A stretch of DNA of 61,817 nt, taken from Chloroflexota bacterium (GTDB taxonomy: Bacteria; Chloroflexota; Dehalococcoidia; Lucifugimonadales; UBA3495). The notes under the pieces were generated by a model that worked only from the letters and a program-made list of their open reading frames with translations, searched no databases and had not been told where the DNA came from. The DNA is taken from contig VXTR01000071.1 in NCBI GenBank assembly GCA_009837355.1, positions 1 through 61,817 on the forward strand, given 5' to 3'. Below, one piece after another: positions 43,352 to 52,454 of the stretch. Positions within the stretch are counted from its first letter, which is position 1, and every line of letters begins with the position of its first letter. Position numbers and translations under genes: made by a program.

Positions 43352-43681
43352 CTAGACCAGCGAGGCCCGCCGGCCCAAGGTTATCCCATCCGGCAAAGCA
43401 ATGGTAGCCTTCAGGTTGCGGAACATCAGGAACCGACTCACGGACAGCGACACCTGCTCGGCATAGTCGGCAATGCCGGGAGCCAGCAGCAGTTCGATGT
43501 CGTCCTGCCCGGCGCTCTCGTAAGCGTCCAGATTGCGACGCCGGCGCACGTTGGTATCGACCGATACCTCAACGGACTCGCCGGTTCAACCATTCCAGCA
43601 GATGAGGTCGATCACGGCCCGACCGCCCCGGCTGCGGATGAGCTGGGCTGCTTCCGGTGTTATTTCCAAGCGTGCCGTCAT
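43352..43681 (-). CDS. Putative HesB-like selenoprotein (in-frame TGA read as selenocysteine)
   Basis: One continuous minus-strand frame of 110 codons, interrupted only by a TGA at codon 32 (43586-43588). The first part reads MTARLEITPEAAQLIRSRGG, then AVIDLICWNG, the TGA, TGESVEVSV, and continues to a normal TAG. The ITPEAAQ start and a Cys-x3-(TGA)-Thr-Gly site resemble HesB/IscA-type Fe-S proteins, a family with known bacterial selenoprotein members; this assignment is tentative. Codon use is normal on both sides of the TGA. Immediately after the TGA the mRNA folds into a SECIS-like hairpin. A TATAAT 6 nt before the ATG shows a promoter of its own. The alternative is a pseudogene by a single TGC/TGG-to-TGA change. 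selA, selB, selD and tRNA-Sec are not in the window. Confidence 0.6.
43541..43584 (-). promoter_or_regulatory. Bacterial SECIS-like hairpin directly after the in-frame TGA
   Basis: On the minus-strand mRNA, one base after the TGA, CCGGCG pairs with CGCCGG, CGTT with AACG and GGTATC with GATACC, stacking into a long hairpin. The internal loop is AGTC/TG and GA is a bulge. The apical loop is GGTC, beginning 23 nt after the TGA. Published bSECIS models ask for a G in the first two loop positions and 16-37 nt from TGA to loop; both hold. All 16 outer and inner base pairs are Watson-Crick. Confidence 0.65.
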
Positions 43682-43687
43682 AAGCCA

Positions 43688-43693
43688 ATTATA
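43688..43693 (-). promoter_or_regulatory. -10 element for the TGA-containing gene
   Basis: TATAAT on the minus strand ends 6 nt before the ATG at 43681, the same spacing as at 9022 and 25786. It overlaps the end of yqeK. A leaderless mRNA is expected. Confidence 0.5.
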
Positions 43694-44303
43694 CCCCTGC
43701 CGTCGACTCTGACGCCAACAGCAGCGTGTTCCGCGCCTCAATCGCCGCCGGATGCACCGGGACCCCCTTATCCAGCAGGCGGGTGATGTTCCTGGTGAGG
43801 AACATTATCATCGCAGCGGAGAGGTCATGTTCGGCAAGTTCCTGCAGTTCCGGCTGCCAGGGGTAACGCTTGCGTTTCACCGGGTCCAGCTTGTCAGCCA
43901 GACAGACGATGTGGCCGATGGCGTCGCCGCCGGCAGGGTTGCCGGTGGTATGCCAATAGACAGCGTCGTACAGCTGGGGATGGCTCAGGCCGTCCTCCCG
44001 TTTCAGCAGCTCCGCTCCCACCATGCCGTGCAGCAATTTTGGATAGCTTCGCTCCAGCTCGGTAACCGGCGGCAGGTCGTACTCCTCCATCCGCAGCAGG
44101 TTTTCCACACCGGAGAAATGCTTGGTTGCGTCGTGGGCCAGGGCGGTGAGACCTACGGCATCGGCATCCTGTTCGTGGTTTTCGCACAGGGCGCGGGCAA
44201 TTTGCTCCACACGCTGGCAGTGCTCCACCAGGCCGGGAGGCAAGCGGCGCATCCGGCGATGGATGCGGTCATACACGCGCCCGGGGATTTCAATGGCGGT
44301 CAT
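43689..44303 (-). CDS. HD-domain hydrolase, YqeK-like
   Basis: A 204-residue HD-domain phosphohydrolase. The metal ligands are visible: His28 (GLVEHCQRV), the HD pair His57-Asp58 (LAHDATKHF), a His in LLHGMVGAELL, and an Asp in IVCLADKLDP near 140. This layout matches YqeK, which hydrolyses symmetrical Ap4A to ADP. It lies 3 nt downstream of the HIT-family gene, another dinucleoside-polyphosphate-type hydrolase family, so the two may act together on Ap4A-like alarmones. YqeK is often next to nadD; here nadD is at 48921. Confidence 0.8.
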   Translation of the reverse strand: MTAIEIPGRVYDRIHRRMRRLPPGLVEHCQRVEQIARALCENHEQDADAVGLTALAHDATKHFSGVENLLRMEEYDLPPVTELERSYPKLLHGMVGAELLKREDGLSHPQLYDAVYWHTTGNPAGGDAIGHIVCLADKLDPVKRKRYPWQPELQELAEHDLSAAMIMFLTRNITRLLDKGVPVHPAAIEARNTLLLASESTAGV

Positions 44304-44306
44304 GGA

Positions 44307-44666
44307 TCAGCCCATCTCACCAAGCTCGCGCCCACCCAGCAGGTGCATGTGGGGCCAGGCGATGGTCTGGCCGGCGTCATCGCCGTTGTTGACCACCAAC
44401 CGGTAGCCGCTCAGCGTTACGCCCTCCCGCCGGGCCATCTCCGCCGCGACTACGAACAGGTGCCCCATGATGGCCTCCATGGCCGGGCTGATGTAGTCCA
44501 GCCCGTTGATGGGCATATTGGGGATGATGAGCAGATGCACCGGCGCCTTGGGGTTGATGTCGCGCACCACGAAGCAGCGCTCGTCCCGGTAGATAACGTC
44601 GGGATGCAGCGGGTCGCGGGCCATCGCCGCAAAGGGCGAATTGCGGGCGGGGGTAATGGTGGTCAT
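44307..44666 (-). CDS. HIT-family protein lacking the first His of the HIT motif
   Basis: A 119-residue histidine-triad protein with the expected fold landmarks: FVVRDINPKAPVHLLIIP, LVVNNGDDAGQTI and a terminal LLGGRELGEMG. The triad HxHxH reads W104-P-H106-M-H108, so the first His is replaced by Trp; the catalytic middle and last His remain. HIT proteins hydrolyse nucleoside phosphoramidates or dinucleoside polyphosphates. The start ATG at 44666 lies 22 nt after the acyl-CoA dehydrogenase gene on the same strand. Activity may be altered by the Trp. Confidence 0.82.
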   Translation of the reverse strand: MTTITPARNSPFAAMARDPLHPDVIYRDERCFVVRDINPKAPVHLLIIPNMPINGLDYISPAMEAIMGHLFVVAAEMARREGVTLSGYRLVVNNGDDAGQTIAWPHMHLLGGRELGEMG

Positions 44667-52097: not shown

Positions 52098-52454
52098 TCA
52101 GACGGCGAATGACGTGCCGCAGCCGCAGGCTTTCTTGGCGTTGGGATTCTCAAACACGAAACCCTTGCCGTTCAGCCCGTCGGAAAAGTCCAACTGGGTG
52201 CCCACCAGGTAAATGTAGGATTTCTTGTCCACCATCACCTTGACGCCGTACTGCTCCACGATTTTGTCTGACTCCCGCTCCTGGTCGGTTATGGTCAGGT
52301 CGTAGGTGAGGCCGGAGCAGCCGCCGCCTTTGACGGCAACCCGCAGCCCAACGTTGTCGGTGATGCCCTCTTTATCGGCAAAGTACTTGATTTTCTCGGC
52401 GGCCTTTTCCGAAATCTCAACGGTGAGTTCGACGCCGTTCTGGGTAATGGGCAT
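52098..52454 (-). CDS. erpA: A-type iron-sulfur carrier (IscA/ErpA/HesB family)
   Basis: A 118-residue A-type carrier with the three conserved cysteines: GGGCSGLTYDL near residue 46 and CGCGTSF at the C-terminus. It receives Fe-S clusters and delivers them to apoproteins. GGAGGT lies 8 nt before the ATG, and TTGACG/TACAAT promoter boxes sit upstream. Which A-type member it is (IscA, ErpA or SufA) cannot be fixed; no isc or suf operon is nearby. It precedes ygfZ. It differs clearly from the small HesB-like gene at 43352, which lacks the C-terminal CxC. Confidence 0.9.
   Translation of the reverse strand: MPITQNGVELTVEISEKAAEKIKYFADKEGITDNVGLRVAVKGGGCSGLTYDLTITDQERESDKIVEQYGVKVMVDKKSYIYLVGTQLDFSDGLNGKGFVFENPNAKKACGCGTSFAV

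Follow-up and report, generated by a model that had tools for sequence, protein, structure and literature searches.

Bacterial SECIS elements are stem-loops located directly 3' of an in-frame UGA and within the coding region, with a G in a small apical loop, as set out for the Sargasso Sea selenoproteome (PMC1088965). The presence of selenocysteine (Sec) in the HesB/IscA fold family has precedent (PMC1794560, PMC13188914): the HesB-like selenoprotein TIGR01911 is a small HesB/IscA-related protein with the published motif UxGP (PMC13188914). Another catalogued selenoprotein family of small size, NF041239 (CC/Se motif, Moorella type), is listed in a 2026 review with a CxxU motif, and counted in its inventory with one Sec (PMC13188914). 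Finally, the A-type carriers IscA, SufA and ErpA (PF01521) have three ligand Cys, in the motifs GCSG and CGC.

In the window, i.e. the whole 61,817-nt stretch of DNA analysed here, we identified a gene of 109 codons on the minus strand (43355..43681), which starts with an ATG at 43681, ends at a true TAG stop at 43354-43352, and is open but for one TGA at codon 32 (43586..43588). With this TGA translated as Sec (U), the product reads MTARLEITPEAAQLIRSRGGRAVIDLICWNGUTGESVEVSVDTNVRRRR...RRASLV, with the motif C28-W-N-G-U32-T-G. The gene follows, and is likely co-transcribed with, a YqeK-like HD-domain gene (43689..44303, minus strand; family named from the sequence alone), itself preceded by a HIT-family gene (44307..44666, minus strand). 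This same-strand order, HIT-YqeK-selenoprotein, is kept in most relatives of family f1. Our best explanation for the hairpin that the mRNA is predicted to form after the TGA is that it represents a bacterial SECIS, and that the UGA at 43588-43586 is read as selenocysteine. We assign to this reading a probability of about 0.94, a figure that covers the SECIS/Sec part only, the binding of SelB, the insertion of Sec and the function of the protein being further steps that we infer.

The genome encodes selA (556 bits), selB (355 bits), selD (382 bits), and a tRNA-SeC with anticodon tca (tRNA-Sec(UCA)), the set by which a selenoprotein-encoding genome is recognised. A general reassignment or readthrough of TGA in this organism would also leave the frame open across one TGA, but the Sec machinery present is a dedicated one, and neighbouring genes such as HIT end in an ordinary TGA stop, which therefore cannot be globally reassigned. 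Moreover, apart from the window gene, an in-frame TGA was met in this genome only in selD, a known selenoprotein family, and we regard general reassignment as having a negligible chance of being correct. The selD gene (L169, about 1532-1582; genome G000, C39) thus encodes a selenoprotein too, with the arrangement HCAG-TGA-AAK, followed by a GGACCTG/CAGGTCC hairpin.

We gathered homologues from 393 genomes of the class, 250 genomes of the order, and public MAG contigs, with a search profile that scores TGA as Cys, so that Cys codons were equally findable. All 108 distinct relatives recovered (108/108) have TGA in the column of codon 32, and the protein is conserved downstream of it. These relatives come from 85 of the 250 order genomes, from further members of the class, and from 15 public MAG contigs; within this sampling of Chloroflexota, no Cys form at codon 32 was found among the nearer relatives examined. 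The A1 profile, run against 400 genomes of the phylum, recovered the window's own gene and only one other TGA homologue, a remote one. Thirteen MAGs carry genes that are 72-88% identical to that of the window and align with it end to end. As the window represents a single assembly, its TGA might have been a nonsense mutation or an assembly error in a dying gene, but the same TGA recurs in all 108 relatives together with the conserved downstream protein, including the 13 close genes from independent MAGs, which makes such an origin extremely improbable. A pseudogene was likewise ruled out by the relatives that share the TGA, and a frameshift or a separate downstream ORF was considered and rejected.

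Two of the relatives deserve a separate mention. One TGA-bearing gene with the same GGTGTCGGTCGACACC hairpin (L063, 2998-3309) is found in a MAG labelled Actinomycetes, which we read as a horizontal transfer or a mislabelled bin. Another (L089, about 185-460) has an extra in-frame TGA where its relatives have Trp (KFLMFK-TGA-LKV), which we read as a nonsense mutation or a sequencing error in that MAG.

RNAfold reproduced exactly the fold proposed in the initial annotation, with 16 Watson-Crick pairs (6+4+6) and an energy of -21.9 kcal/mol for the TGA plus 48 nt. On the minus strand, this comprises a lower helix CCGGCG/CGCCGG (43584-43579 paired with 43546-43541), a middle helix CGTT/AACG (43574-43571 with 43552-43549), and an upper hairpin GGTATC-GGTC-GATACC (43553..43568; 43568-43563 paired with 43558-43553), capped by the apical tetraloop GGTC (GGUC, 43559..43562, read 43562-43559). 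That annotation had the loop starting 23 nt after the TGA with GG: the GG and the 23-nt gap are correct, the first base of the loop being nt 24. The position directly 3' of an in-frame UGA, the small G-bearing loop, and a distance of 20-23 nt all match known bacterial SECIS elements. A scan of 43480-43700 against Rfam at E up to 1 gave no match.

It had also been proposed that such a hairpin was unlikely to form here by chance, since its pairs must encode protein as well, and that it was evidence for recoding by itself. The first claim is wrong for the upper stem, because the peptide V-S-V-D-T itself dictates most of the pairs: its codons (GTN TCN GTN GAY ACN) are near-palindromic and fix four of the six, leaving free the loop and two wobble pairs, one between the preceding codon and Thr and one between Val and Asp. 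Random codon draws for this peptide give all six upper pairs in 11% of cases, and in 3% when a GG loop is also required. Taken alone, the hairpin of the window does not differ significantly from dinucleotide shuffles (z -0.79 for the 71-nt fold, 48 of 200 shuffles being as good), nor from 5,000 synonymous codings of this peptide (p 0.057 for the observed energy), and single-sequence folding energy was dropped as evidence. The bacterial SECIS/Sec reading is supported by the relatives, but a single hairpin makes a weak case for it, since the peptide forces most of the upper stem.

This raises an alternative, in which the hairpin is a mere by-product of the palindromic coding of V-S-V-D-T, and some other signal decodes the TGA as Sec. 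The four pairs forced by the amino acids, and the 11% of synonymous codings that give all six, fit such a view, but the choice of codons among relatives does not. The inner pair joins the third positions of Val and Asp, where both changes are silent; across the 108 relatives it is G-C in 59, A-U in 42, G-U in two, and unpaired in five, four of which are tandem copies lacking the Asp. A-U and G-C therefore switch together, which is the compensatory change that the initial annotation had suggested looking for in TGA-bearing relatives. Among the 100 relatives with Asp, 97 are Watson-Crick at this pair, against a mean of 51.5 and a maximum of 67 in shuffles, and the codon usage of the rest of these genes predicts pairing in 0.40 (40%). 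Mapped on the protein tree, the pair has changed at least eight times, and a single genus-level group contains both of its forms. The number of independent changes is approximate, the tree being poorly resolved (50 open branches); an independent-pairs test on starred branches alone has too few pairs for significance. The two Val codons of the motif also differ, the first being almost solely GTG or GTA, yet the second, two codons later, is GTC in 99 of the 108 relatives.

Twenty of the 108 relatives have no fully paired upper stem, several of them with Pro or Ala in place of Ser, and six being tandem copies. In these second gene copies (L114, L120, L121, L122, L125, L127), V/I-S/T-V-S-T replaces V-S-V-D-T. 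With Ser for Asp, they lose the standard stem, but by-eye reading finds the hairpin re-registered a few bases upstream, at a near-equal distance from the TGA, with a loop that is mostly GGTC, GGTG or GATC, and so mostly with G at its start. Such a shift would be hard to reconcile with a coding by-product, which we judge very unlikely.

The bacterial SECIS remains our preferred reading, and it is the comparison of relatives at the sequence level, not the window sequence, that shows the hairpin to be non-random. In the 42 sequences that have the spacing of the window, 99.6% of the cells of the upper helix are paired, against 65.9% in the lower and 54.2% in the middle helix, both of which vary among lineages. 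Overall, 75.6% of cells are paired versus 28-42% in slid controls, and the mean fold z at the hairpin site is -1.35 in 107 relatives versus -0.04 in 49 control 3' ends. Of the 108 relatives, 96 have a GGTC loop and all have a G within the first two positions of the loop; the distance from the TGA to the loop is either 20 or 23 nt. Where the initial annotation took the whole 16-pair structure as the element, this conservation points to the upper GGUC hairpin as its functional core, the full structure being largely particular to the lineage of the window. Unlike in other bacterial SECIS elements, the upper stem has no bulge, and it is very uniform across the whole order, as the codons of V-S-V-D-T occupy the same stretch.

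Concerning Cys-encoding homologues, we found two, both remote and of NF041239 type (L173 and L174), which have TGC and TGT at the position of the TGA, with another Cys just before. V-S-V-D-T is absent from both, and neither folds into a GG tetraloop hairpin or a comparable one at this place. With two remote sequences, this agrees weakly with the SECIS reading, and part of the reason for the conservation of V-S-V-D-T may lie in the RNA hairpin and not in the protein.

We could not find any match for the window protein in a Pfam scan, nor anything relevant in a PDB sequence-profile search. NF041239 matches it over its full length (4-92 of the protein), at 32.2 bits, below the cut-off of 40, and the two also share a small size and a Sec in the same region, where L173 and L174 have CC; however, the window motif is CxxxU and not CxxU or CC. 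All 40 aligned relatives match NF041239 at E up to 1 (40/40), and one from family f1 (L062) passes the cut-off with 42.1 bits. By sequence, the window protein is a remote relative of NF041239, not filed as a member. With TIGR01911 it has in common a Sec in a small HesB/IscA-related protein, but it lacks the UxGP motif and is not matched by this family even at E 1; the score of L045, a sister relative, is only 14.6 bits against a cut-off of 66.35.

The AlphaFold model of the window protein (pLDDT 79, with its minimum, under 50, at residues 29-31 next to U32) superposes on E. coli SufA with Z 8.8 over 86 residues at 2.8 A, and on IscA with Z 7.8, versus 2.3 for unrelated folds. A sister-group model (pLDDT 89) gives Z 9.5 with both IscA and SufA. 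In a profile-profile alignment with three A-type carriers (E 1.1e-4), U32 falls on the GCSG cysteine (IscA Cys35), GUTG aligning with GCSG. The protein is thus predicted to have the IscA/SufA/ErpA fold, in which Sec32 occupies the position of the first Cys ligand of the cluster. It differs from A-type carriers in having Sec for Cys35 and in lacking the C-terminal CGC, which is replaced by UxH or CxH in sister lineages and by nothing in the window gene, so that of the three ligand places only the first is occupied, by U32. PF01521 itself is matched by just two of the 40 relatives (best E 0.04), and not by the window protein. A canonical three-Cys A-type carrier, ErpA, is encoded in the same window (52098..52454, minus strand; GGCSG ... 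CGCG; PF01521 69.8 bits; NCBIfam ErpA 119.1 bits, cut-off 117), and the selenoprotein is therefore an addition to the normal carrier, not its replacement. The second PF01521 protein of the genome (L149, 308-685) is without the first ligand Cys (AGPGL), and its tail is long and rich in Gly and Cys (GGGCGSGGCGCGGGGCGCGGGGCGGGCGGH).

From these data, a functional scheme may be proposed. SelB with GTP and Sec-tRNA(UCA) would bind the GGUC-capped upper stem-loop, and the ribosome would decode the UGA at 43588-43586 as Sec, giving a 109-residue selenoprotein in which Sec32, perhaps with Cys28, most likely binds a metal or an Fe-S cluster or carries out thiol/selenol redox chemistry. We hold a carrier ligand and a CxxxU redox residue to be about equally likely roles for Sec32. 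In the latter case, the protein would truly contain Sec but would not carry clusters, its IscA-like fold hosting a CxxxU thiol/selenol redox centre, a serious contender that we place slightly short of even odds. In the window group, indeed, a Cys precedes Sec by four residues (CWxGU) and the C-terminal CGC of carriers is missing, and the CxxU motif under which NF041239 is listed (PMC13188914) points in the same direction. In most sister lineages, by contrast, Sec has no Cys close by (PPxGU), and their C-terminal UxH/CxH seems closer to a ligand set.

The sister lineages differ from the window gene, which has no second TGA, in a further respect. Of 58 genes in the groups with a 20-nt spacing, 51 carry another in-frame TGA close to the C-terminus. 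It is the first stop met downstream of U32 (the second in L089), and between it and the true stop lie two to four codons, typically x-H. Five relatives have Cys at this place (LTCQH, PTCAH, PTCRH, GPGCRH, PACTH). This pattern was noted at the 3' ends of loci L024-L027, L030, L031, L033-L036, L038-L048, L083-L113, L136, L139, L144 and L145. Many of the TGA forms have a hairpin beyond the true stop, whose sequence varies while pairing is kept (e.g. GGGCCGCC/GGCGGCCC, CTCGTCGA/TCGACGAG, AGCGAC/GTCGCT); the Cys forms mostly have none, although L037 has a GC-rich fold. The 3'-UTR has a mean z of -0.98 in the 51 TGA forms, compared with +0.40 where Cys takes the place of the TGA (five genes) and -0.04 where there is a single Sec (49 genes). 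The second TGA is therefore probably a second Sec with its own 3'-UTR SECIS. The divergent L144 and L145 end in ECPE-U-RT and DCPE-U-RR, a CxxxU-like C-terminal motif and not TUxH.

NF041239 is counted with one Sec in the 2026 inventory, whereas these sister lineages appear to have two, and our literature searches found no description of a two-Sec form, which is the part that may be new. We tentatively propose, as a possibility that we rate at rather less than even, that this IscA-fold group of Chloroflexota has rebuilt the three ligand Cys of the carrier with selenium, with Sec for Cys35 in all recovered members, and UxH for the C-terminal CGC in sister lineages, where the second Sec would be inserted via a 3'-UTR SECIS. 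Its members would then carry a metal or an Fe-S (or Fe-Se) cluster on selenolate ligands.

SECIS-directed recoding is established biology, and the gene described here gives an already catalogued selenoprotein family one more relative, which scores below the threshold and which standard annotation would truncate at residue 31. The gene adds a well-supported selenoprotein to the Dehalococcoidia/SAR202-type MAGs, on whose selenoproteins our literature searches found little. In this family, V-S-V-D-T represents a protein motif that may be kept for an RNA hairpin, and not for the protein. If the two-Sec reading of the sister lineages holds, selenolate ligation of an A-type carrier would become directly testable.
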